Both the position numbers and the translations under genes were made by a program. The notes beneath the pieces were generated by a model. That model was given only the letters and a program-made list of their open reading frames with translations, ran no database searches and was not told where the DNA came from. Positions 45,120 through 61,963 of a stretch of 64,000 nt of DNA are shown here, in pieces (position 1 is the first letter of the stretch; the number at the start of each line of letters is the position of its first letter). This DNA comes from Polycladomyces abyssicola (GTDB lineage Bacteria > Bacillota > Bacilli > Thermoactinomycetales > JIR-001): contig NZ_AP024601.1 of assembly GCF_018326425.1 (NCBI RefSeq), positions 1,042,001 through 1,106,000 of the forward strand, given 5' to 3'.

Positions 45120-47072
45120 ATGGGATTTCATCTTCCCAAGAACTTTTTGGTGACCGGCGAACCGATGATTGTTGTCGCCGAAGTGTTGAGCGTGCTCACT
45201 CTCGCCGGGATCATTTTCGTCTTGACTTACTATAAGAAATGGAAATGGCTGTGGGACGAATGGCTGACGACCGTTGATCACAAAAAGATCGGGATCATGT
45301 ACATTATGACGTCCCTGTTGATGTTGTTCCGCGGGGGCGTGGACGCCTTGCTGATGCGGACGCAGTTGGCTTTGCCCAACCTGCACATTCTGGACGCGGA
45401 ACACTATAACCAGATTTTCACCGCGCACGGTACGATCATGATCTTTTTCATGGCCATGCCGTTCATCTTCGGATTGATGAACGTGGCCGTGCCGCTGCAA
45501 ATCGGAGCGCGTGACGTCGCATTCCCTTACCTGAACGCCATCAGCTTCTGGCTGTTTTTCGTCGGTTGCATGCTGTTCAACATCTCGTTCATGATCGGTG
45601 GCGCGCCGGATGCGGGTTGGACCAACTACACACCGCTGGCCGGCAGTGATCTTGCTCCCGGACCCGGTATCAACTACTACCTGATCAGCTTGCAGATTTC
45701 CGGAATCGGGTCGCTGATGACCGGGATCAACTTCCTGGTCACCATCCTGAAAATGCGCGCGCCGGGCATGACGTTGATGCGGATGCCGATGTTTACGTGG
45801 TCCGTGTTGATCACGTCGATCATCATCATCTTCGCGTTCCCGGTGCTGACCGTTGCGTTGGCCTTGTTGACAATCGACCGGTTGTTCGGGTCGCACTTCT
45901 TCACCATCTCCGGTGGAGGAGAGCCGATGATGTGGGCCAACCTGTTCTGGATCTGGGGTCACCCGGAAGTGTATATCGTGGTTTTGCCCGCATTCGGCAT
46001 TTTCTCCGATGTGATCAGCACGTTCGCCCGTAAGCGGCTGTTCGGATACGGCGCGATGGTGTACTCGATGGTCGTGATCTCGGCACTCAGCTTCCTTACA
46101 TGGGTGCACCACTTCTTCACGATGGGCGCAGGACCGGCCGTTAACTCCTTCTTCTCGATATCGACGATGGCCATCGCCATTCCGACCGGGGTGAAGGTGT
46201 TCAACTGGCTGTTTACGCTGTACAAAGGACGGATTGAATTTACGACGCCGATGCTGTGGTCGGTCGGCTTCATCCCCACGTTCCTGATCGGGGGCCTGAC
46301 CGGGGTGATGCTCGCTGTGGCACCGGCGGATTACCAATATCACAACAGTTACTTCCTGATCTCCCACTTCCACTATGTATTGGTCGGGGGAACCGTTTTC
46401 GGTTGTTTGGCGGGGCTGTACTATTGGTGGCCCAAAATGTTCGGTTTCAAGCTGGACGAACGGCAAGGGAAATGGGCGTTTTGGCTGTTTAACATCGGGT
46501 TTAATGTCTGCTTCTTCCCTCAGTATTTGGTGGGCTTAATGGGGATGACCCGGCGGATATACACCTATCCGGAAGGGCTTGGCTGGACTCCGTACAACTT
46601 TATCTCTACGGTGGGCGCCTATATGATGGGTGTCGGGTTCCTCATCATGGTGTACAACATCTTGTACAGCGTGCGTCACGGCGAACGCGATGTCACGGGC
46701 GACATCTGGAACGGGCGGACGCTGGAGTGGTCGATCTCCTCGCCGGCACCGCACTACAACTTCGCCCGCATCCCGGAAGTGGATGACGTGGACGCGTGGT
46801 GGCACATGAAGAAGCGGAAACGGAAACAACCTTGGGAACTGCGACCACTCAAACCGATTCACATGCCCAACAACTCTGGCCGGCCGTTTATCATGTCGAT
46901 TTGGTTCTTCATCGCCGGGTTTGGGTTGGTGTTTGAATGGTATTGGATGGGTATCATCGGATTGCTCGGCGTGCTGTATTGCATGCTGAAACGTTCGTTT
47001 GAATACGACGATCACCACTACATTCAAGTGGATGAGATCGAGCGTACGGAATCTGCGGCAGGGAGGGCGTGA
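45120..47072 (+). CDS. qoxB: Menaquinol oxidase aa3 subunit I (QoxB)
   Basis: 650 residues, ATG 45120 behind AGAAGGAGG. Catalytic haem-copper subunit with about 14-15 membrane helices. Haem and copper ligands: FTAHGTIMIFFMAMPF, IWGHPEVYIVVLPAFG (CuB His and the cross-linked Tyr), TWVHHFFTMGAGP (CuB His pair), ISHFHYVLVGGTVFG (haem ligands). Pumps protons while reducing oxygen with electrons from menaquinol. Confidence 0.97.
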   Translation: MGFHLPKNFLVTGEPMIVVAEVLSVLTLAGIIFVLTYYKKWKWLWDEWLTTVDHKKIGIMYIMTSLLMLFRGGVDALLMRTQLALPNLHILDAEHYNQIFTAHGTIMIFFMAMPFIFGLMNVAVPLQIGARDVAFPYLNAISFWLFFVGCMLFNISFMIGGAPDAGWTNYTPLAGSDLAPGPGINYYLISLQISGIGSLMTGINFLVTILKMRAPGMTLMRMPMFTWSVLITSIIIIFAFPVLTVALALLTIDRLFGSHFFTISGGGEPMMWANLFWIWGHPEVYIVVLPAFGIFSDVISTFARKRLFGYGAMVYSMVVISALSFLTWVHHFFTMGAGPAVNSFFSISTMAIAIPTGVKVFNWLFTLYKGRIEFTTPMLWSVGFIPTFLIGGLTGVMLAVAPADYQYHNSYFLISHFHYVLVGGTVFGCLAGLYYWWPKMFGFKLDERQGKWAFWLFNIGFNVCFFPQYLVGLMGMTRRIYTYPEGLGWTPYNFISTVGAYMMGVGFLIMVYNILYSVRHGERDVTGDIWNGRTLEWSISSPAPHYNFARIPEVDDVDAWWHMKKRKRKQPWELRPLKPIHMPNNSGRPFIMSIWFFIAGFGLVFEWYWMGIIGLLGVLYCMLKRSFEYDDHHYIQVDEIERTESAAGRA

Positions 47073-48030: not shown

Positions 48031-48200
48031 CACTCCACACGGCAAAAGCCGTGGGATTCTTGAGTGGTTAACGCCCTCAGTCCATTTCTGTTTCGGGCAA
48101 CCCTCAAGCTAGGGCTGTGTCATCAGCCCATCCCACCCGGTTAGCACGTACCCGGATGGGCGGCACACCTGTTACCAGTGTGCTAGGCTACTAACCCTGA
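48027..48200 (-). ncRNA. Predicted omega RNA (reRNA) of the tnpB element
   Basis: The stretch between the tnpB stop and the right end, which in IS605-type elements is made into the guide RNA of TnpB. It contains the terminal hairpin and TCAA end; a guide would continue into the flank, beginning ATCCCGTACATGCCGA on the minus strand, i.e. antisense to the 3' end of qoxD. Exact 5' end unknown; it may reach into tnpB. Confidence 0.6.
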
Positions 48201-49238
48201 AATGGCTTTGGCGATGTTGATCGCCCCATTCAGATCAGCATGGATAGTGTATCCGCACTGTTTGCACTTGAAGCGGATACCGCTTCTGTTCGCCTTTTCG
48301 CGATAACCGCACTTGCAGGTTTGGCTGGTGTATTCGGGATTGACGATCTCCACCCGAATACCCGCCATCTCTGCTTTGTAGCGGATCATCTCTTTCAGCT
48401 GATAAAACGACCAGGAATGCAGGTTCCGTCCAGCTTCTTTTTTTGACTTAGCTCGGTTTCGGATGTCCGTCAAGTCTTCCATACGGATGATTCCAACACC
48501 GTTGGATACCGCAAAGTTGACGATTTGACGGCTGATCTTGTGATTGTGATCTTTCATCCACCGGGCTTCTTTGTTCTTGGACTTGCGGATCGCATCGAGC
48601 TTCTTGGCTTTGCCCAGCTTCCGCCGTTTGGCGGCGTAGCGTCTGCGTATGTATGCGCATTGATTCCCTTTAAAGAACAGGGATTTGGTTCCGATGCTTG
48701 CCACCGCCAAATAGCGGAGTCCGAGGTCAATGCCCATCACCTTTTCGCCTTGGCTGGCTTCCACATCAAACGTGATCGGCAAGGCAATGAACCATTTGCG
48801 CTTCTTCTTGTAGAGCTTCGCCGTTCCTTGTTTGGCCATTCCGTCGATGATCCGATCCAGCCATTGTTGCTGATATGACCGAGCCACAACCGGCACACCG
48901 ATGCGCTTCTCAAGCATAGGGAACGACACCGTGTAGAAGTCGCCGTTTTTCTCGACTTTCAGGTTCTGATTGTTGAACGAACACCACATCTTCCTGAATG
49001 CCCGAGCTTGTTGGTGTTTCTTCTGCGATTTCACATCCCGGATCGTTTGGTTTATGATCGCAGACGGGAACTTCTCGTCAGAAAACTCCTTGAAAATCTT
49101 GCTGGTCGCCTTGTTCACGTCGGGATGAAGCAAGAGCCAGTTTGCAAACTTCGTGTTGATCTGTGTCATTCGTTCATACATGGCCTGTTTGAATTTGATT
49201 GGTTTATACAGTTCCAGCTTGAGTGTGATGGTGGGCAT
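48183..49238 (-). CDS. tnpB: TnpB RNA-guided endonuclease (IS605 family)
   Basis: 351 residues from ATG 49238 (MPTITLKLELYKPIKFKQAM); the frame opens 12 codons earlier. RuvC-like catalytic residues look intact: Asp in KVMGIDLGLRYLAVASIG, Glu in GIIRMEDLTDIRNR, Asp in HADLNGAINIAKA. Zinc finger CKCGYREKANRSGIRFKCKQ plus CGY. Cuts DNA next to a short target-adjacent motif guided by the omega RNA. Starts five bases after the tnpA remnant. Confidence 0.92.
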   Translation of the reverse strand: MPTITLKLELYKPIKFKQAMYERMTQINTKFANWLLLHPDVNKATSKIFKEFSDEKFPSAIINQTIRDVKSQKKHQQARAFRKMWCSFNNQNLKVEKNGDFYTVSFPMLEKRIGVPVVARSYQQQWLDRIIDGMAKQGTAKLYKKKRKWFIALPITFDVEASQGEKVMGIDLGLRYLAVASIGTKSLFFKGNQCAYIRRRYAAKRRKLGKAKKLDAIRKSKNKEARWMKDHNHKISRQIVNFAVSNGVGIIRMEDLTDIRNRAKSKKEAGRNLHSWSFYQLKEMIRYKAEMAGIRVEIVNPEYTSQTCKCGYREKANRSGIRFKCKQCGYTIHADLNGAINIAKAISGLVA

Positions 49239-49242
49239 CCAT

Positions 49243-49449
49243 TCACCCCCTTTTCTTCTCTTGTTCTTCCACATATTGCCGGATCGTTTCTCTTGAAACG
49301 TTTCCAGCCTGACAAATGTTTTTCACCAACTGTTTGAATCTCTCTTCCACTTGGTTTATCAACACTTTTCTGCGATAACGTGGGCAGAAAACAAAGTGGT
49401 AGTTAATCAGAGATACCGTCTTTTTGGTCCTTCTGTATGGTTGTCCCAT
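49243..49449 (-). pseudogene. tnpA: TnpA (Y1 HUH transposase) with internal deletion
   Basis: 68 residues. The N-terminus (RRTKKTVSLINYHFVFCPRY, RRKVLINQVEERFKQLV) and the C-terminus (QAGNVSRETIRQYVEEQ) are TnpA-like, but the roughly 65 residues between them, holding the HUH metal motif and probably the region leading to the catalytic Tyr, are missing in frame. It cannot be an active transposase, so the element is non-autonomous. Confidence 0.8.
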
Positions 49450-53470: not shown

Positions 53471-53500
53471 ACAATGTACAATATCTTGTATTTTGTATAA
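53471..53500 (+). promoter_or_regulatory. Promoter/operator of the yhf-type operon
   Basis: TACAA TATC TTGTA inverted repeat (53477-53490) inside a series of ACAAT/TTGTA half-sites, followed by TATAAT (53496-53501). A TTGTAT further 5' is too close for a normal spacer, so the -35 is unclear. The repeat is a good candidate for binding by the first gene product, YhfZ. Confidence 0.5.
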
Positions 53501-53526
53501 TGACCAATTTAGAAAGGATGTGGTCG

Positions 53527-54441
53527 ATGAGAGAGGCTTTATTGCAAAAGAGCGCGATTGCCGTCATGAAATTGGCACGGGAACTGATGCCCTTGAAAAA
53601 GGGAGATAAAATCTTAACCATCTCCGATTATGTGGATAAACTGAACATCTCAAGAGGAACCATCCAAAACGCCTTCAGTTATTTAAAAAAGCAAGAAGCG
53701 GTCATATTGGAAAGCAGAGGACATCTGGGGACGTTCATAGTTGAAATCGATTATAAGAAACTGTGGGAGCTGACGGGAATTGGTCTCTTGACCGGTTCTA
53801 TGCCGCTTCCTTACTCCAAACTATATGAAGGCCTGGCAACCGGATTATATAAATCGTTTACAAAAGCTGGTTTGGATTTCAGCCTGGCCTATGTACGCGG
53901 ATCGAAGTACCGCATTCGAATGTTGAAAAAAGGGGCTTACAGCTTTGTCATCACCTCCAAACTCGCCGCGAAGCAAGCGATGGAGAAGGGGGAAGCGGTT
54001 GATATTTGCATCGACTTTGGCCCGCACACGTATTTGTCCGAACACGTCGTCTTATTTGCATCACGCGATAAAAATCGCATTGAAAATGGAATGAAGGTTG
54101 CCGTTGACTCCAATTCCTTTGATCAATATTTCATTACCCAACAGATCTGCAGGGACAAAGACATAGAGCTGATCGATATGCCTTATAACCAAATTGTTAG
54201 TGCAATAAGCGATAAAAGAGTCGATGCTGGTGTCTGGAATCTGGATGAAGTGAAAGAGAAAAAGTTGGACCTTCATTACCGAACCATCAATGATTTAACA
54301 GGCGAAACGACACATGCGGTGTTAGTTGTTTCAAAAGAGAACAATGGAATTGTAAATATTTTACGAGGTATTTTAGACCCTGTTTACGTCACCAATATTC
54401 AAAAACTGGTCGTGCGAAACCAGATGATTCCCAGTTACTAA
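53527..54441 (+). CDS. yhfZ: YhfZ-like transcriptional regulator
   Basis: 304 residues from ATG 53527; AAAGGA lies 11 bases before. N-terminal winged-helix part (ISDYVDKLNISRGTIQNAFS, then ILESRGHLGTFIVEIDYKKL) and a C-terminal ligand-binding domain resembling periplasmic-binding-protein type regulators (SKLAAKQAMEKGEAVDICID, YNQIVSAISDKRVDAGVWN). Matches E. coli YhfZ in architecture and in the genes it precedes. Likely controls this operon through the inverted repeat upstream; ligand unknown. Confidence 0.85.
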   Translation: MREALLQKSAIAVMKLARELMPLKKGDKILTISDYVDKLNISRGTIQNAFSYLKKQEAVILESRGHLGTFIVEIDYKKLWELTGIGLLTGSMPLPYSKLYEGLATGLYKSFTKAGLDFSLAYVRGSKYRIRMLKKGAYSFVITSKLAAKQAMEKGEAVDICIDFGPHTYLSEHVVLFASRDKNRIENGMKVAVDSNSFDQYFITQQICRDKDIELIDMPYNQIVSAISDKRVDAGVWNLDEVKEKKLDLHYRTINDLTGETTHAVLVVSKENNGIVNILRGILDPVYVTNIQKLVVRNQMIPSY

Positions 54442-54455
54442 AATGGAGGATATCC

Positions 54456-54815
54456 ATGGATCTGTTGCAGCAAAGAATTGATCTTCTGCATCAATCCGGG
54501 CAGATTGACGTTCAGACCAAAGAATCTTTACATAACGTCTTGCGCTTGCTGAACCAGCAATTTGGGATGGATCTGAACGAAGAAACCGGTTCGATGATGA
54601 TCACTCATCTGGCGATGGCGGTATCCCGTCAGCTGGAAGGAAAGAGCATCAAGGAAATGAACGAGGGTCAGTATTCAGAATTGCGAGATGATGGGGATTT
54701 TGAAAAAGCGAGTCATATATGGAAGGCCGTTCAAGAAGTGCTCCCTGTTCCATTTACCACCGCTGAAAAGCAGTATATGTTACTTCATCTGGCTGCTTTA
54801 TTAAAACAAATCTGA
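54456..54815 (+). CDS. yhfY: YhfY-like PRD-domain protein
   Basis: 119 residues behind GGAGG, 14 bases after yhfZ. A single PTS-regulation domain with conserved His in MMITHLAMAVSRQLEGKSI and KQYMLLHLAALLKQI. PRDs are usually phosphorylated by PTS proteins; here the domain stands alone without DNA-binding part, as in E. coli YhfY. Suggests a phospho-signal input into the pathway (inference). Confidence 0.82.
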   Translation: MDLLQQRIDLLHQSGQIDVQTKESLHNVLRLLNQQFGMDLNEETGSMMITHLAMAVSRQLEGKSIKEMNEGQYSELRDDGDFEKASHIWKAVQEVLPVPFTTAEKQYMLLHLAALLKQI

Positions 54816-54842
54816 TCATGGAAACGTGAAGGAGTGAAATAG

Positions 54843-55205
54843 GTGAAAAAGATTGTTGTAGGTGGTTATTTGGAAAAGGAAAAGATCGCTGAGATGATCA
54901 AGGAAATCGGCAAAGATCAAGTGAGTTTGGAGATTAAGTCTGACTTCGAGGCGGCGATGGCAGTAAAAAACAACCAGGCTGATTATTATTTTGGCGCATG
55001 CAATACCGGCGGCGGAGGCGCACTTGCCATGGCCATTGCCATGCTGGGAATGAATCAATGCGTGTCCGTATCGACTCCCGGAAAGATGCTCAGCGACGAA
55101 GAGATTCTTCAAAGCGTTAAAGACGGCAAAAAAGCGTTCGGCTTTACGCCGCAACATGCAGAGCAAGTGATTCCTGTCATTTTAAATGCAATTTTAAACG
55201 GATGA
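54843..55205 (+). CDS. yhfU: YhfU-like protein (DUF2620)
   Basis: 120 residues, GTG behind AAGGAG. Small alpha/beta protein: MKKIVVGGYLEKEKIAEMIK, then NNQADYYFGACNTGGGGALA with a Gly-rich loop, ending AEQVIPVILNAILNG. Function unknown in all members I know. Directly precedes the membrane protein YhfT, so it may be its soluble partner (inference). Confidence 0.85.
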   Translation: MKKIVVGGYLEKEKIAEMIKEIGKDQVSLEIKSDFEAAMAVKNNQADYYFGACNTGGGGALAMAIAMLGMNQCVSVSTPGKMLSDEEILQSVKDGKKAFGFTPQHAEQVIPVILNAILNG

Positions 55206-55239
55206 ACACTGAATCATGTGAGGGACCGGAGGGATTCAA

Positions 55240-56556
55240 ATGTTTGAAAATACCGAACTCATGAGGTATTTCGTCATCGCGCTCATCGGCGCGATCTCAG
55301 CTGTTCTGGTAAACCGGAACGTTGCCGTATTTAACGACGGACTCCGGCCGATCATGCCGGAATTTATCGAAGGTCGCATGGATCGTAAAGCTCTTGCAGC
55401 CACAAGCTTTGCGCTTAGCTTCGGACTTGTCGTCGGTTTTGGGATTCCCTTTTCGATCGGTACGAATATTCTTTTGATCCATAGCGTCCTTCTTGGTACG
55501 GACATCATCGGTACCTGGTTCCCATCAAGCAAAAAAGGTTTTGTGCTTTCCGGCGTTGTCGGAGCGCTTTACGGAATGGGGCTCGTTTATGGACTGGAGC
55601 TGATTGTTGATACCTTTAAGAAATTGCCTGTCAACTTCATCCCGGCCATGGACGCTGTTGGTGCGCCTGTTATTACGGCTTTTGCCGCATTCCCCGCACT
55701 TGTTGTTGCCATGCAATACGGGTTTAAGAGAGGAATTCTGACTTTTATTCTTACGTTTTTAACACGTCAATTCTTCGCCTATTACGGAAACATAAAGATG
55801 GGAGCAACGGCCGTTACATTAAATGCTGACGGGATGGCATTGCTGGTTGGCATGTCGATGATGATCTTTTTTGCCATTCGCCAAAAAGCGGATCCGAATG
55901 AATCGGGAGCAAATGCTGCATTGTTAAGCTTGTTTGCCGACCGGGTGGCTCAAATTAAAAAGAACATCTGGTTTCTCGCGGTCAGCGGGGGGTTGATTGC
56001 CGCTGCGGCCAGTATGCTGATGATGGCTGGTGACCCCATTTCGTTAAACCTGGTAAAACAAGGGAACCTCTCGGCGGCCAGCATGACTTCATTGGCCCGG
56101 GCGATCAGCTTTGTCCCGCTGGTGGCGACGACAGCCATCGTCACAGGCGTATACAGTCCGGCGGGAACTAAATTCGTTTTTGTAGTGGGCTTCCTGTTCC
56201 CGCACAATCCTCTCCTCGCTTTCATTGCGGGTGCGCTTACTGTGATGTTCGAAGTTTACACCCTTGATTTGATTGCAAAAGCGCTTGATAAATACCCGGG
56301 CATGAAAGCAGCCGGTGAGCATATTCGCGTCGCCATGAACAAGGTGTTGGAAATTTCATTGCTTGTCGGCGGTATGATGGCTGCTGACAAAATTGCACCG
56401 GGATTAGGTTTTCTATTCGTGGCAGGGATTTTCACCTTGAACAAATATATGAAAAAGCCTGTTGATGACATGGCTGTGGGCCCGGTTGCCGCCATATTGC
56501 TGGGTATTATCGTCAATATTCTGTATGTTGTCGGTCTGTACGTCCCGGGTAAATGA
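55240..56556 (+). CDS. yhfT: YhfT-like polytopic membrane protein
   Basis: 438 residues with about 11-12 hydrophobic segments (YFVIALIGAISAVLVNRNVA, AATSFALSFGLVVGFGIPF, SFVPLVATTAIVTGVYSPAG, LLVGGMMAADKIAPGLGFLF). Start ATG behind CGGAGGG. Looks like a permease; Asn/Asp/Gly motifs in the membrane (NVAVFNDGLRPIMPEFIEGR, IPAMDAVGAPVITAF) recall PTS-EIIC-like or other sugar permeases, but no family signature is firm. Probably brings the unknown substrate into the cell. Confidence 0.83.
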   Translation: MFENTELMRYFVIALIGAISAVLVNRNVAVFNDGLRPIMPEFIEGRMDRKALAATSFALSFGLVVGFGIPFSIGTNILLIHSVLLGTDIIGTWFPSSKKGFVLSGVVGALYGMGLVYGLELIVDTFKKLPVNFIPAMDAVGAPVITAFAAFPALVVAMQYGFKRGILTFILTFLTRQFFAYYGNIKMGATAVTLNADGMALLVGMSMMIFFAIRQKADPNESGANAALLSLFADRVAQIKKNIWFLAVSGGLIAAAASMLMMAGDPISLNLVKQGNLSAASMTSLARAISFVPLVATTAIVTGVYSPAGTKFVFVVGFLFPHNPLLAFIAGALTVMFEVYTLDLIAKALDKYPGMKAAGEHIRVAMNKVLEISLLVGGMMAADKIAPGLGFLFVAGIFTLNKYMKKPVDDMAVGPVAAILLGIIVNILYVVGLYVPGK

Positions 56557-56574
56557 TTCATCTGCATATGATTC

Positions 56575-56625
56575 CAGCGAAGGGAGAGAGATTCAACCTC
56601 TCTCTTTCCTCTTTACTTGAGCAAA
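56575..56625 (+). terminator. Hairpin between yhfT and php (attenuator-like)
   Basis: GGGAGAGAG ATTCAAC CTCTCTCTTT stem followed by a CT/T-rich tail inside the operon; may lower expression of the downstream enzyme genes relative to the transporter. Confidence 0.5.
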
Positions 56626-56644
56626 TGATCATTTGGTGATAGAG

Positions 56645-57538
56645 ATGGAGTACATCGATGGATATACCTTTATGCATGAACATATTTTTGTCGACCTGTC
56701 CGGAGTCAAAGAAAACCTTGACTGTCGGTTGGATTGCTTTGCCGATACAGTGGAGGAATTGAAGCGCCTTGCCCGGCAAGGGGTTCGCAATATTGTTGAG
56801 GTTACCAACATCGGCATGGGGCGCAATGTGGAATATATGGAGCGGGTTGCCAGGGAATCGGGAATGAATCTCATATATTCAACCGGGTTTTACAAAGAGC
56901 CTTTTTATCCGGAATACGTAAAAGAAAAAACAGCGGATGAGCTCGCTGCCATCATGATTGGAGATATCGTAAACGGCATGGATGGGACAGGTATCAAGGC
57001 AAGCGTCATCGGTGAGATCGGTTCTTCCAAAAATGTGATCAAGCCGACCGAGGAAAAAGTGTTTCGTGCTGCAGCCAAGGCCCATCTGGAGACGGGAAAA
57101 GTGATTACCACTCACACGACTTTTGGAACCATGGGGTTGGAGCAGATCCGATTATTGAAAGAGATGGGTGTAGACGTGAATCGGGTCATTATCGGTCATG
57201 TCGATTTAAGCGGTGATTTGGAGTATATCCTGCGTCTCATCGACAGCGGCGCTTACGTACAATTCGATACCATCGGTAAAAACAATTATTTGCCGGATGA
57301 AACCCGTGCCGATATCCTGGCTGAAATTGCGGGGCGCGGGCTGGATGAACGCGTGATGCTGTCTTTGGACATTACGCGTAAATCCCACTTATTCAATCAC
57401 GGGGGAATCGGATATACCTATCTGATCGACCATTTCCTTCCCATGCTGAAGGAACGGGGAGTCAGGGATCAAGCGATTGAAAACATGCTTAGATGGAATC
57501 CGCAAAGAATTTTGAAAGGAGGAATCATTGCAGCATGA
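56645..57538 (+). CDS. php: Phosphotriesterase-family hydrolase (Php/YhfV)
   Basis: 297 residues from ATG 56645 (TTG 56633 possible). TIM-barrel amidohydrolase with two metals: HEH in YTFMHEHIFVDLSG, a Glu (SVIGEIGSSKN) at the bridging position where phosphotriesterases have carboxylated Lys, His in ITTHTTFGTMG, His in IIGHVDLSGDLEY, Asp in MLSLDITRKSH. Related enzymes hydrolyse lactones or phosphate esters; substrate here unknown. Stop overlaps yhfS (ATGA). Confidence 0.9.
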   Translation: MEYIDGYTFMHEHIFVDLSGVKENLDCRLDCFADTVEELKRLARQGVRNIVEVTNIGMGRNVEYMERVARESGMNLIYSTGFYKEPFYPEYVKEKTADELAAIMIGDIVNGMDGTGIKASVIGEIGSSKNVIKPTEEKVFRAAAKAHLETGKVITTHTTFGTMGLEQIRLLKEMGVDVNRVIIGHVDLSGDLEYILRLIDSGAYVQFDTIGKNNYLPDETRADILAEIAGRGLDERVMLSLDITRKSHLFNHGGIGYTYLIDHFLPMLKERGVRDQAIENMLRWNPQRILKGGIIAA

Positions 57539-58641
57539 AGACCTTTCCGTTGCCCGGCTTGACTTTACAAGAAGCAAAAGAATTGCAATTTCGCCTCGTA
57601 GATGAAATCACCCGCGAGTTTCGCGGCAGTGAAATTTTGACGCGCGGTGATCTTGGCGTCGTCAAAGGATTAAATAAACCCAGAATCACTGAAAAAGTGG
57701 AGAAAGTATTGGCACGGTTTTTCCGCACCGATAGTTGCATGCTGGTGCGTGGTGCAGGAACCAATGCGATCCGGATGGCGCTGTTTTCTTGCGTGAATCC
57801 CGGTGACCACATCCTGGTTCATGACGCTCCGATTTACCCTACCACCCAAACGACGATCGATCTGTTGAATTTACAGGTCGTACGCGCCGATTTCAACCGG
57901 ACGGAATCCATTGTAGAAACCCTGGAATCGAATCCAAATGTGAAAGCGGCTCTTATTCAATATACCAGGCAGAAAATGGATGACCGTTATGATATGAAAG
58001 CGGTGATTGAAACGATTAAATCCAACAGACCGAATCTGCCCGTCGTAACGGACGACAATTATGCCGCCCTGAAGGTGAAAAGAATCGGTGCAGAGCTGGG
58101 GGCGGATCTCTCTTGTTTTTCTTTGTTTAAATTGCTGGGTCCGGAAGGGATCGGTTGCATCGTCGGAAAAGCGGAGTATATCCGCAAACTGGTTCGACAG
58201 AATTATTCCGGGGGCTTACAAGTTCAGGGATATGAAGCATTGGAAGCGTTGCAAGGTTTGATCTATGCACCCGTTATGCTTGCGATTCAAGCGGAAGTCA
58301 ATGAGCGTCTGGTTACACGTCTGAATAACAAGGAGATTGCCGGTGTGAAAAGAGCTTTTCTGGCCAATGCTCAGTCCAAAGTATTGCTGGTTGAATTTGA
58401 ACAGGAAATTGCGGAAAAAGTGCTGGAGGAAGCTGAAAAACTGGGTGCGGCTCCGTATCCTGTTGGAGCTGAATCGCGGTATGAATTTGTGCCTATGTTT
58501 TATCGCGTTTCCGGAACGTTTTTGGCCGCAGTCCCCGCGTTGGAGAAGCGGATGATTCGCATTAATCCGATGCGCAGCGGTGAGGAGACGGTCTTGCGGA
58601 TCCTGAAGTCTGCTATCGAAAAAGCCGTAGAGAGTATGTAG
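57535..58641 (+). CDS. yhfS: YhfS-like fold-type I PLP enzyme
   Basis: 368 residues from ATG 57535 (AAAGGAGG upstream), translationally coupled to php. Aminotransferase/beta-eliminating-lyase fold: MLVRGAGTNAIRMALFSC near residue 70, PVVTDDNYAALKVKRIGAEL with the PLP Asp, and the Schiff-base lysine in SCFSLFKLLGPEGIGCIVG. Homologous in kind to E. coli YhfS, whose reaction is not established. Transaminase or lyase on an amino compound is likely. Confidence 0.86.
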   Translation: MKTFPLPGLTLQEAKELQFRLVDEITREFRGSEILTRGDLGVVKGLNKPRITEKVEKVLARFFRTDSCMLVRGAGTNAIRMALFSCVNPGDHILVHDAPIYPTTQTTIDLLNLQVVRADFNRTESIVETLESNPNVKAALIQYTRQKMDDRYDMKAVIETIKSNRPNLPVVTDDNYAALKVKRIGAELGADLSCFSLFKLLGPEGIGCIVGKAEYIRKLVRQNYSGGLQVQGYEALEALQGLIYAPVMLAIQAEVNERLVTRLNNKEIAGVKRAFLANAQSKVLLVEFEQEIAEKVLEEAEKLGAAPYPVGAESRYEFVPMFYRVSGTFLAAVPALEKRMIRINPMRSGEETVLRILKSAIEKAVESM

Positions 58642-58649
58642 GTGATGAT

Positions 58650-59813
58650 ATGTTTCTGGATGTAACCTTGCGACGCAACAGAGCGCTTGTAGACTACGCA
58701 TTCGAATTGCACCAATCCGGGGCCATTTTCCCCGATACGTACGTGATTGATCTAGATGCCGTCGTTGAAAACGGAAGCCAGATGATCCGGGAAGCACAAA
58801 AACATCAGGTCATGTTATTCGTCATGACCAAACAGCATGGCCGCAACCCGATTGTGACACAGGAACTGATGAAATTGGGATTTCACGGTGCTGTTGTTGT
58901 CGATTACAAAGAAGCGAGGGTTCTTCATCAACATCAAATTCCGATCGGGCACATCGGCCATCTTGTGCAAATTCCTTCCGGATATATGGATGAAGTGATC
59001 GGGATGAATCCGGGTTTCATCACCGTGTACAGCGTTGAAAAAGCGAGAGAAGTCGATGAGGCATGCCGGAAAAGGGGAAGAAAACAAAATGTTTTCCTTC
59101 GCATCATCGATGATGAAGATGTGTTGTATCCGGGCCAATACGGCGGTTTTTACCTGAATGAACTAAATGAAGTGATTCCCCAAATCCGGCAGTTATCTCA
59201 CATTCAGATTGCCGGCCTGACCTCTTTTCCTTGCTTTCTCTACAGTGACACGGAGAAAGATATCATCCCGACCAAGAACGTTGCCACATTGAAAAAAGCA
59301 AAAAAGTGCCTGGAAGAACGATTGGGTATGGAAATTCCGCATCTGAACCTTCCATCTGCCACTTGCACAAGTACGATCGCCAAAATCCGCGCCAATGGCG
59401 GAACGCAAGGGGAACCGGGCCACGGACTTCTAGGATCGACCCCTATGCATGCGAAATATGAGCTGATTGAGCGGCCGGCCATGGTGTATGTCAGTGAAGT
59501 GTCTCATAACCTGGGTAAGAAAAGCTACTGTTATGGTGGTGGTCACTACCGCCGATCTCATCTGGAAAATGCCCTGGTCGGAAAGAGCTTGCAATCAGCG
59601 GTTCGGGTTAAAGCAGAGATGTCGGACCCGCACAGCATTGACTACCATATTGGCTTAAATCAACCTCTAACCATCGGCGATACAGTGATCATGGCTTTTC
59701 GTTCGCAAGTGTTTGTCACTCGCAGCGATGTGGCCGTGGTGAAGGGCTTATCCAGCGGAAAACCGGAACTTGTCGGAATTTTTGACAGCTTAGGTAAAGA
59801 GATTGGCAGGTGA
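58650..59813 (+). CDS. yhfX: YhfX-like PLP enzyme (alanine-racemase fold)
   Basis: 387 residues, ATG 58650 eight bases after yhfS. Fold-type III barrel: FPDTYVIDLDAVVENGSQMI then the PLP lysine in MLFVMTKQHGRNPIVTQEL, a His-rich IPIGHIGHLVQIPSGYMDEV, and a C-terminal beta domain. Members of this group racemise or decarboxylate amino acids; no activity is established for YhfX. Overlaps the open frame of yhfW. Confidence 0.87.
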   Translation: MFLDVTLRRNRALVDYAFELHQSGAIFPDTYVIDLDAVVENGSQMIREAQKHQVMLFVMTKQHGRNPIVTQELMKLGFHGAVVVDYKEARVLHQHQIPIGHIGHLVQIPSGYMDEVIGMNPGFITVYSVEKAREVDEACRKRGRKQNVFLRIIDDEDVLYPGQYGGFYLNELNEVIPQIRQLSHIQIAGLTSFPCFLYSDTEKDIIPTKNVATLKKAKKCLEERLGMEIPHLNLPSATCTSTIAKIRANGGTQGEPGHGLLGSTPMHAKYELIERPAMVYVSEVSHNLGKKSYCYGGGHYRRSHLENALVGKSLQSAVRVKAEMSDPHSIDYHIGLNQPLTIGDTVIMAFRSQVFVTRSDVAVVKGLSSGKPELVGIFDSLGKEIGR

Positions 59814-59817
59814 GAAC

Positions 59818-61026
59818 ATGGGAAGGTTTATCATCGTAGTATTGGATAGTTTTGGAATCGGATATATGGATGACGTTCCCAAAGTCCGTCCGCAAGATGT
59901 GGATGCCAACACATGTAAGCATATTCTCGAAGCCAGGACTGATTTATACTTGCCGAATTTAGAGAAATTGGGAATCATGAACGCGCTCGGGGAAGAAGTG
60001 GGCAAAATGCGCTTTTCTGAGAGAGCTGTTTACGGCAGTTCCGATTTGATGCATTTTGGAGGCGATACCTTTTACGGCCATCAGGAAATGATGGGCACAC
60101 TCCCCAAAAAACCGCTGATTCAGCCTTTTAACGAAGTGATTGATGAAGTGTACGCTGCCCTGAAAAAACAGGGATATGAAGTTGAGTATGTCGGAGATGA
60201 TCTTAAAATCCTGATGATCAACAACTGCGTGACCGTTGGCGACAACCTGGAGACGGATCCCGGGCAGGTATATAATATCACGGGATGTTTGGATGTGATT
60301 GATTTTGAAGGCATCGCAACGATTGGTAAAGTGGTCCGAAGTGCGGTGAGTGTCTCCCGTGTCATTGCCTTCGGCGGCAAAGATGTCACGATCGGGGACG
60401 TGCTGGCAGCCCGGAAAGAAAAAGCGGGAAAATATGCAGGGATTGACACACCTCAATCAGGGGTATACAACAGGGGTTATCAGGTTATTCACTTGGGATA
60501 TGGAGTTGATCCCGAGGTACAGGTACCCACCATCCTCGGCAAACAAGGCATCCCGGTAGTTCTGCTGGGCAAAGTGGCGGATATCGTAGAAAATCCTTAT
60601 GGCACAAGCATTCCCGGTGTGGATTCGGCCTGGTTGTTTGAACAGACCATCGAACAAGTGCGCAACATGCGCCACGGTTTTGTTTGCTTAAATATCCAGG
60701 AAACGGATCTTGCCGGTCATGCCGAAGATGTGGATCAATATGCCGACCGCCTGCAAATATCTGATCGTTATCTTGGAAAGCTAATGGAAGAATTGACCGA
60801 AGATGATGTTCTGATCGTGATGGCTGACCACGGAAATGATCCGACCATCGGCCACAGCAATCATACACGGGAAAAAGTACCCATTTTGGTCTACAAAAGA
60901 GGCCTGACTTCACGTACCATCGGCCATCGTAAAACCATGTCCGATGTGGGAGCTACAGCTGTTCAATATTTCGGTGCAGGAAAAACACAGAACGGTGAAT
61001 CGTTCTTATTCTTGTTACGAAGTTAA
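59818..61026 (+). CDS. yhfW: YhfW-like phosphopentomutase-superfamily protein
   Basis: 402 residues, ATG 59818 behind GGTGAG. Alkaline-phosphatase superfamily, DeoB-like: metal Asp in FIIVVLDSFGIGYMDDVPK, the cap domain, and metal ligands in VLIVMADHGNDPTIGHSNHT. DeoB has Thr-Gly-His-Trp-Glu at the phosphorylated Thr; here the equivalent reads GDTFYGHQEMMGTLP, so Tyr stands where the Thr nucleophile would be. Either another residue is used or the reaction differs. Ends the operon; GGGAG/CTCCC stem with six T follows at about 61033-61066. Confidence 0.86.
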   Translation: MGRFIIVVLDSFGIGYMDDVPKVRPQDVDANTCKHILEARTDLYLPNLEKLGIMNALGEEVGKMRFSERAVYGSSDLMHFGGDTFYGHQEMMGTLPKKPLIQPFNEVIDEVYAALKKQGYEVEYVGDDLKILMINNCVTVGDNLETDPGQVYNITGCLDVIDFEGIATIGKVVRSAVSVSRVIAFGGKDVTIGDVLAARKEKAGKYAGIDTPQSGVYNRGYQVIHLGYGVDPEVQVPTILGKQGIPVVLLGKVADIVENPYGTSIPGVDSAWLFEQTIEQVRNMRHGFVCLNIQETDLAGHAEDVDQYADRLQISDRYLGKLMEELTEDDVLIVMADHGNDPTIGHSNHTREKVPILVYKRGLTSRTIGHRKTMSDVGATAVQYFGAGKTQNGESFLFLLRS

Positions 61027-61113: not shown

Positions 61114-61142
61114 TTGACAAAATAATATAAATATGTTAAAAT
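61114..61142 (+). promoter_or_regulatory. Promoter with overlapping palindrome before the MBL gene
   Basis: TTGACA (61114-61119), 17-base spacer, TAAAAT (61137-61142). The -10 begins a perfect palindrome AAAATAAAATTTTATTTT (about 61138-61155), and TGTAGCTACA lies near 61189. Likely operator sites for an unknown repressor. Confidence 0.7.
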
Positions 61143-61225: not shown

Positions 61226-61963
61226 CTGAAGCAAATAGCCGAAGGATTGGAAATGTTGGGAATTACGGCGAATCTGATGAGAGAGCAGATGACGATTCAT
61301 CCGGCCCTGATCTGGGAAGAGGATACTGTTATCTTGGTGGATGCAGGGTATCCCGGTCAACTCCCCCTGTTTCGTGAGGCGATGGAGGCGGCCGGTGTCC
61401 CTTTTGAGAAGCTCCATAAAGTGATTCTCACGCATCAGGATATTGATCATATTGGATGTTTGCCCGATCTGCTCAATGCGTCTCCTCAAAAGGTCGATGT
61501 ACTGGCGAGTGAACTGGAAAAGCCGTATATTCAGGGTGAGAAGCCTTTGATCAAACTCGAGAAGGTCATGGCCCGACTGAATGATTTCCCACAGGAACAT
61601 CGTGAAGGATTAAAACGGGTGTTTGAAAATCCGCCCAAAGCTTTGGTGGACAAAACGGTGGCAGATGGAGAGGAGTTGCCGTTTTGCGGTGGAATCACCG
61701 TTATTCACACGCCGGGTCATACCCCTGGACATATCAGTCTGTATCATCAACCAAGCAAGACCCTGATCGCCGGAGATGCTCTGGCCGTCGTGGATGGTCA
61801 GTTGGTTGGACCGGTACCGCAATATACGCTGGATATGGATGTCGCCATTCAGTCGTTAAAAAAACTGGCGCAATATGATATTGAAGCGGTCATCTGCTAT
61901 CACGGCGGCCTGTATCGGGAGAATGTCAATCGCCGTATTGCAGAATTGGCCGACGGTCGTTAA
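61226..61963 (+). CDS. MBL-fold metallo-hydrolase
   Basis: 245 residues if started at CTG 61226, which has GGAGG four bases upstream and gives an N-terminus MKQIAEGLEMLGITANLMRE typical of the family; the first conventional start in frame is TTG 61247. Metal motif VILTHQDIDHIGCLPDLLN, His in HTPGHTPGHISLYH, Asp in IAGDALAVVDG and final His in VICYHGGLYREN. Glyoxalase II/lactonase-like superfamily member; substrate unknown. Confidence 0.88.
   Translation: MKQIAEGLEMLGITANLMREQMTIHPALIWEEDTVILVDAGYPGQLPLFREAMEAAGVPFEKLHKVILTHQDIDHIGCLPDLLNASPQKVDVLASELEKPYIQGEKPLIKLEKVMARLNDFPQEHREGLKRVFENPPKALVDKTVADGEELPFCGGITVIHTPGHTPGHISLYHQPSKTLIAGDALAVVDGQLVGPVPQYTLDMDVAIQSLKKLAQYDIEAVICYHGGLYRENVNRRIAELADGR

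Follow-up and report, generated by a model that had tools for sequence, protein, structure and literature searches.

A yhf operon of eight genes in Polycladomyces abyssicola, possibly a phosphotransferase-linked system for the uptake and breakdown of an amino or amide compound

We have analyzed a stretch of 64,000 nucleotides of the Polycladomyces abyssicola genome (contig NZ_AP024601.1, positions 1,042,001 to 1,106,000), called here the window. It carries on the forward strand a run of eight co-directional genes, at approximately 53527-61026, that is identified as a yhf operon by Pfam, by NCBIfam and by matches to Escherichia coli. When the eight proteins were compared by BLASTP with the eight of E. 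coli K-12, each had one match, its namesake, with E values from 3e-10 to 2e-158 and identities from 22% (YhfY) to 55% (YhfS). The initial annotation, made from the sequence alone, had proposed this one-to-one correspondence with yhfZ, Y, U, T, php (yhfV), S, X and W, and both the correspondence and the order that it gave, Z-Y-U-T-V-S-X-W, agree with our results. In E. coli K-12 the order is Z-Y-X-W-V-U-T-S. Of the neighboring genes, php and yhfS overlap by 4 bases, and the widest gap, between yhfT and php, is of 88 bases. The Pfam families found were YhfZ_C with HTH_41, PRD, DUF2620, YhfT, PTE, YhfS-like_C with fold-I pyridoxal phosphate (PLP) domains, YhfX-like_C with Ala_racemase_N (YhfX) and Metalloenzyme (YhfW), and the main family of each of the eight proteins exceeded its cut-off. 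The NCBIfam models YhfZ_full (387 bits, cut-off 260) and PRK12383 (607 bits, cut-off 254) were also matched; the Php model PRK09875 was not, window Php scoring 395 against a cut-off of 486. No protein was reassigned by the profile searches to a family whose established function would explain the set. The window operon is thus a real further member of the yhf set already known from E. coli. This is a conserved eight-gene set of K-12, the best-studied of bacteria, that is still without a known substrate. In the accessible parts of the literature searched, including PMC11227560, PMC10659101 and PMC4448311, we found no published function for it, in E. coli or elsewhere. PMC11227560 lists a yhfS deletion among six mutants with around 30% less biofilm.

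The first gene, yhfZ (53527 to 54441), codes for a GntR-like regulator with a ligand-binding C-terminal domain (PF14502, PF14503 and NF041241 above cut-off; solved relative 2ozz). An earlier start, at 53471, had been implied before, but the first residue of E. coli YhfZ falls on residue 21 of the long frame in the alignment, which makes 53527 the more probable one. Just upstream of the gene is the palindrome TACAATATCTTGTA (53477 to 53490), a candidate operator for YhfZ. The form TACAA-N4-TTGTA is found exactly at yhfZ in 5 of the 12 loci of the phylum, for four of them as the sole copy in the 13-20 kb fetched, and looser forms are visible by eye at several other loci. Another exact copy in the window, at 46653-46666 within the QoxB gene, is probably due to chance, and judged by number of copies alone, a single mismatch being tolerated, the palindrome was matched by 8 of 100 shuffles. 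Another possible regulatory element is a terminator-like hairpin between yhfT and php (56581 to 56608), which might act as an attenuator. A regulatory RNA in the same gap was considered and rejected, the stability of the hairpin being ordinary (z -1.33).

Related sets were found in the phylum of the host and in Coriobacteriia, Fusobacteriota, Vibrio and Enterobacterales. Within the phylum, YhfT was above the cut-off in 12 of 398 genomes (in 13 if the limit is set at E 0.001), and DUF2620 exceeded its own cut-off in the same 12. A match in another genome (G142, locus L088) with an E value of 5e-5 was below the cut-off and without yhf neighbors, and was not counted. A scan of genome contigs with two YhfT peptide patterns, which are biased to forms like that of E. 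coli, gave 49 loci, mostly from Enterobacterales and one from Coriobacteriia, while plasmid records contributed the sets of Cetobacterium somerae and Vibrio halioticoli. The latter (plasmid AP024877.1, L128:9441-15851) is an unannotated set that lacks S and is arranged as Z-Y-V-U-T-X-W. The plasmid listing includes chromosome-sized E. coli records (NZ_CP134663.1, NZ_OL790696.1 and NZ_CP141089.1). Our tally comprises the 61 yhfT loci of at least 9 kb, 5 of them cut by a contig end and 56 complete; shorter loci and a decayed remnant (L089, see below) were excluded. Among the 56 complete loci, Y, U, T and X were present in all, Z and V in 55, W in 49, S in 44 and a ninth gene in 9. W and S were both absent from seven Yersinia loci, php from L087 and yhfZ from L004. 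There were 11 distinct gene strings, some of them differing through loss alone. Contiguous sets on one strand recur in unrelated genomes, and the neighborhood comparison that had been named earlier as a check gave strong co-occurrence rather than its absence. Decay was also seen. In a second genome of the genus of the host (G398), the remnant at L089:393-1885 consists of a 43-residue piece of YhfT, the last part of YhfX and a YhfW that is divided over two frames, and in a third genome of this genus YhfT had no match. In Trabulsiella odontotermitis strain 01 (L049) yhfT and yhfS are each in two frames, both being intact in a second strain (L050). The host genome has a single match to DUF2620 and a single one to YhfT, and the G+C content of its operon (47.0%, versus 52.6% for the window) may hint at transfer.

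The four enzymes have kept their key residues, counted after removal of proteins below set lengths. Php, a metal hydrolase of the phosphotriesterase family (56645 to 57538; PF02126; solved relatives 1bf6 and 4lef), keeps the metal-ligand positions His10, His12, His156, His184 and Asp241 in 61/61 sequences and Glu123 in 60/61, the exception being a paralogue at L089. YhfS (57535 to 58641; PF22475; solved relative 4j8l) is a fold-I PLP enzyme with Lys199 in 46/46, for which the methionine gamma-lyases are nearest beyond its own family. YhfX (58650 to 59813; PF21279 and PF01168; solved relative 4kbx) is a fold-III PLP enzyme with Lys61 in 58/58, and it lies between alanine racemase (E 1e-5) and D-threonine aldolase (E 4e-4). 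YhfW (59818 to 61026; PF01676 and NF009049 above cut-off) resembles phosphopentomutases, with Thr or Ser at position 84 and the metal-ligand positions conserved in 51/51. We take these residues of Php, YhfX, YhfS and YhfW to be the catalytic and metal-binding ones. As judged from this conservation, which bears out the enzymes of the initial annotation, they are probably active. The order in which it had placed them stays a proposal. S is missing from 12 of the 56 complete loci and W from 7, so that YhfS and YhfW are dispensable in some versions.

The ninth gene (approximately 300-390 codons) occurs in 8 of the 12 operons from the phylum, as well as in those of one member of the Coriobacteriia and of Cetobacterium, and is absent here and in E. 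coli. The description of the window operon as complete consequently stands when E. coli is the reference and does not when these relatives are. The product is of the amidase-signature type. Four of five ninth-gene proteins passed the Pfam Amidase cut-off over a short stretch, that of Coriobacteriia being below; NCBIfam amidase models matched under their cut-offs; and a profile of these proteins against the PDB found GatA at E 1.7e-7. Residues K60, S110 and S134 are present in 9/9 aligned sequences (L085 lies outside the alignment), at what we take to be the places of the Lys, Ser, Ser triad of amidases. There was no match elsewhere in the genome of the host or of three others that lack the gene (G000, G209, G298 and G384). 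The recurrence of an amidase-type gene in many yhf operons suggests that an amide bond is met by many users of the pathway.

The product of yhfT (55240 to 56556; PF10797) is a polytopic membrane protein and the presumed carrier; from its topology, its neighbors and the regulation of the operon we infer that it transports. It was modeled with many helices (predicted local distance difference test, pLDDT, 76, from 22 sequences). Foldseek gave no convincing match for this model and the best row in VIA was SLC26Dg, Z 5.6 over 41 residues; given that pLDDT and only 22 sequences, a missing fold match proves nothing. A relationship of YhfT with DUF4311 and DUF4310, or an origin by their fusion, was discarded with hhalign E values of 0.29 or worse, the DUF side having four sequences.

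The small protein YhfU (DUF2620; 54843 to 55205) gave a clearer picture. Its AlphaFold model has a pLDDT of 93 and matched RpiB/LacAB isomerases in Foldseek at E 1.3e-4. In VIA the first 23 rows were all RpiB/LacAB, with Z from 8.9 to 13.5 (the best with a root-mean-square deviation of 2.2 over 111 residues), and the next row was at 7.7. When YhfU was joined with the SFCGS family in one profile and searched against the PDB, the two top matches were RpiB (E 0.0014 and 0.0018), with the cysteines aligned. One-to-one comparisons by hhalign gave less: E. coli RpiB was at E 0.026 and 2% probability from YhfU alone, and at E 1.2e-4 and 55% from SFCGS. We predict that YhfU takes the RpiB/LacAB fold. 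Its loop cysteine, Cys53, is conserved in 61/61. At the position of His99 of E. coli RpiB the alignment has no conserved histidine, and the protein stops near RpiB residue 128, ahead of the C-terminal arginines that presumably bind phosphate. The isomerase activity has probably been lost, and YhfU is classed here by its fold and not as an isomerase.

YhfY (54456 to 54815) is a stand-alone PRD protein (PF00874, 30.1 bits, cut-off 23) with His51 in 59/59 relatives. In one relative (G355) the operon is followed by a gene for HPr of the phosphotransferase system (PTS). This gene (L080:16443-16697) begins 35 bases past yhfW, is preceded by AAGGAGG and codes for the HPr active-site motif GLHARPA. 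The phospho-input through the PRD that had been proposed in the initial annotation is supported by this arrangement. A terminator-like hairpin follows the gene, and there are five HPr matches in this genome. An HPr-like match in Aeromonas (L098) is on the opposite strand and was not counted; by gene sizes its surroundings are presumably the rpoN-ptsN-npr group.

A second linkage is found in clusters of the SFCGS family, with which YhfU has a Cys-Gly loop in common. They contain PRD-SFCGS-DUF4312-DUF4311-DUF4310, an amidohydrolase and DgaE; wherever the retrieved sequence is long enough, DgaF is seen as well. On two Bartonella plasmids, NZ_CP104889.1 (L099:631-10421) and NZ_CP104895.1 (L129:272-10062), the cluster runs through DgaF and is followed by a PRD/EIIA regulator and a fusion of HPr with enzyme I (EI); Pfam was applied to one of the two. 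The annotated SFCGS records name no kinase between the PRD and aldolase genes, yet DgaF is of a phosphosugar-type family, like YhfW. Likewise, no kinase family was found by Pfam or NCBIfam among the eight window proteins, though YhfW belongs to a phosphomutase family. In Enterococcus faecalis (NZ_CP143580.1, L095:9385-12120) a PTS EIIC and a MupG-like protein, along with a small unknown protein, are inserted in the SFCGS cluster.

The observed families, their co-inheritance, the conservation of key residues, the HPr gene of G355 and the palindrome, together with the fold predicted for YhfU, are most naturally read as a self-regulated, PTS-linked operon for the uptake and breakdown of an amino or amide compound, to which we give a probability of around 0.45. 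YhfT would import the compound through the membrane, with YhfU as a cytosolic partner that keeps the fold of RpiB and has probably lost its activity. YhfY would receive phosphate from HPr and gate or drive the uptake. Once inside, the compound would be opened by Php, and by the amidase-type enzyme where the operon has one, and then epimerized or cleaved by YhfX. YhfS would remove the amino group or cleave, and YhfW would shift the phosphate, letting the carbon into central metabolism. YhfZ, bound at TACAA-N4-TTGTA, would repress the operon until its ligand binds. Transport, the phosphate route, the class of substrate and each reaction with its place in the order are what we infer. Uptake and breakdown had been proposed in the initial annotation, which is partly supported as a whole: the substrate and phosphate route that it sketched stay proposals, and the RpiB-like fold of YhfU, the ninth gene and the HPr linkage are new here.

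Several observations weigh against this interpretation. The substrate of the yhf set is not known. The adjoining HPr gene occurs in only one of 63 loci (at least 9 kb, searched with E. coli HPr). Pfam did not find EIIA, EIIB or EIIC domains in the eight window proteins, and YhfY or YhfU as an ordinary EIIA or EIIB was rejected on this ground. The probable distant kinship of YhfU with SFCGS is weak (Pfam 20.1 bits, under the cut-off of 27.3; hhalign E 5e-4 but probability 30%). The Bartonella cluster is only analogous, no kinship to YhfT being detectable in its membrane proteins. EI and HPr were present in all 17 genomes or records examined, and EI, which occurs in 71 of 199 genomes of the phylum, was found in 12/12 yhf carriers versus 68/196 others (p 6e-6, uncorrected for kinship). 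Arabinose isomerase works without the PTS, and EI was also found in 14 of 18 genomes with this enzyme (a hand count from two listings in which G085 and G120 are weak matches), with yhf no different (p 0.13). The co-occurrence of EI adds little to the case because this non-PTS control is enriched too. The PTS argument is carried by the two gene linkages, HPr in G355 and HPr-EI in Bartonella, each from one lineage.

The same data fit, in part, an operon in which YhfT is an ordinary secondary carrier of a free or already phosphorylated compound and the PRD protein and HPr merely regulate by the state of the PTS. PRDs are best known from PTS-controlled regulators, and the lack of EII domains and the result of the arabinose isomerase control go in this direction. 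YhfY, however, has in Pfam a PRD alone, with no DNA-binding domain, and is kept within the operon in 56/56 complete loci, 55 of which have the separate regulator YhfZ; and mere regulation would hardly seem to call for an HPr-EI pair of its own next to the SFCGS cluster. We consider this alternative rather unlikely. At the other extreme, YhfY-YhfU-YhfT, and in the same way PRD-SFCGS-DUF4310/4311/4312, could be an unrecognized kind of PTS permease in which the PRD histidine and the cysteine of the RpiB-like fold relay phosphate from HPr to the crossing substrate. This is improbable; if true, a sugar-isomerase fold would have been reused as a transport phosphocarrier in a new type of group translocation. 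Should YhfU instead isomerize sugar phosphates as RpiB and LacAB do, the operon would be a pathway for phosphates of pentoses or amino-pentoses, with YhfW as the last step. The fold and invariant cysteine of YhfU and the phosphopentomutase-like YhfW would agree, but the lost histidine and shortened C-terminus do not, nor does the membrane protein that accompanies YhfU in 61/61 loci, and Pfam up to E 10 found no match of YhfU to another isomerase family. We see little chance for such a pathway. Equally doubtful is an operon for biosynthesis, the repair of damage or export. YhfT could work in either direction, S and W are dispensable in some loci and there is no known substrate, but an autogenous ligand-binding regulator, hydrolases, a PTS linkage and a patchy distribution (12/398) would be commoner in optional uptake and breakdown. 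A link with phages was dropped, the phage records having no megablast match to yhf.

Around the operon, the window also encodes QoxB, MreB, MinC, Obg and a protein resembling CotS (115 bits, under the cut-off of 172.7), which together suit a spore former of the Bacilli. Around 4 kb upstream, on the reverse strand, is a gene for an IS605 OrfB/TnpB-like protein (48186-49274). Downstream, on the forward strand, there is a gene for a hydrolase of metallo-beta-lactamase fold (61247-61963) with a promoter-like site before it (61114-61142).

The comparison links the yhf set physically with the PTS, assigns DUF2620 to a predicted fold, brings in a ninth enzyme that hints at an amide bond, and points to a possible operator. 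The closest known system is that of E. coli K-12 (yhfZ-yhfS, b3376-b3383), with the same eight families one to one on one strand and differing in gene order and in proteins that are 22-55% identical to those of the window. YhfW shares with the phosphopentomutase DeoB the superfamily, the Thr or Ser presumed to be the nucleophile and the presumed metal-ligand positions, whereas the phmmer alignment is limited to the ends, approximately residues 3-103 and 245-400. With the RpiB/LacAB isomerases YhfU has in common the predicted fold and the loop cysteine, other isomerase positions having seemingly been lost. Classical PTS permeases are comparable in the HPr linkage seen in relatives of yhf and SFCGS, and differ in the EIIA, EIIB and EIIC domains that were not found in the yhf proteins of the window. 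The SFCGS cluster is the nearest analogue in layout, with a lone PRD, a small RpiB-like protein, one or more membrane proteins, a metal hydrolase and a PLP enzyme. However, DUF4310 and DUF4311 are not detectably kin to YhfT, DUF4312 has no yhf counterpart and the enzymes differ.

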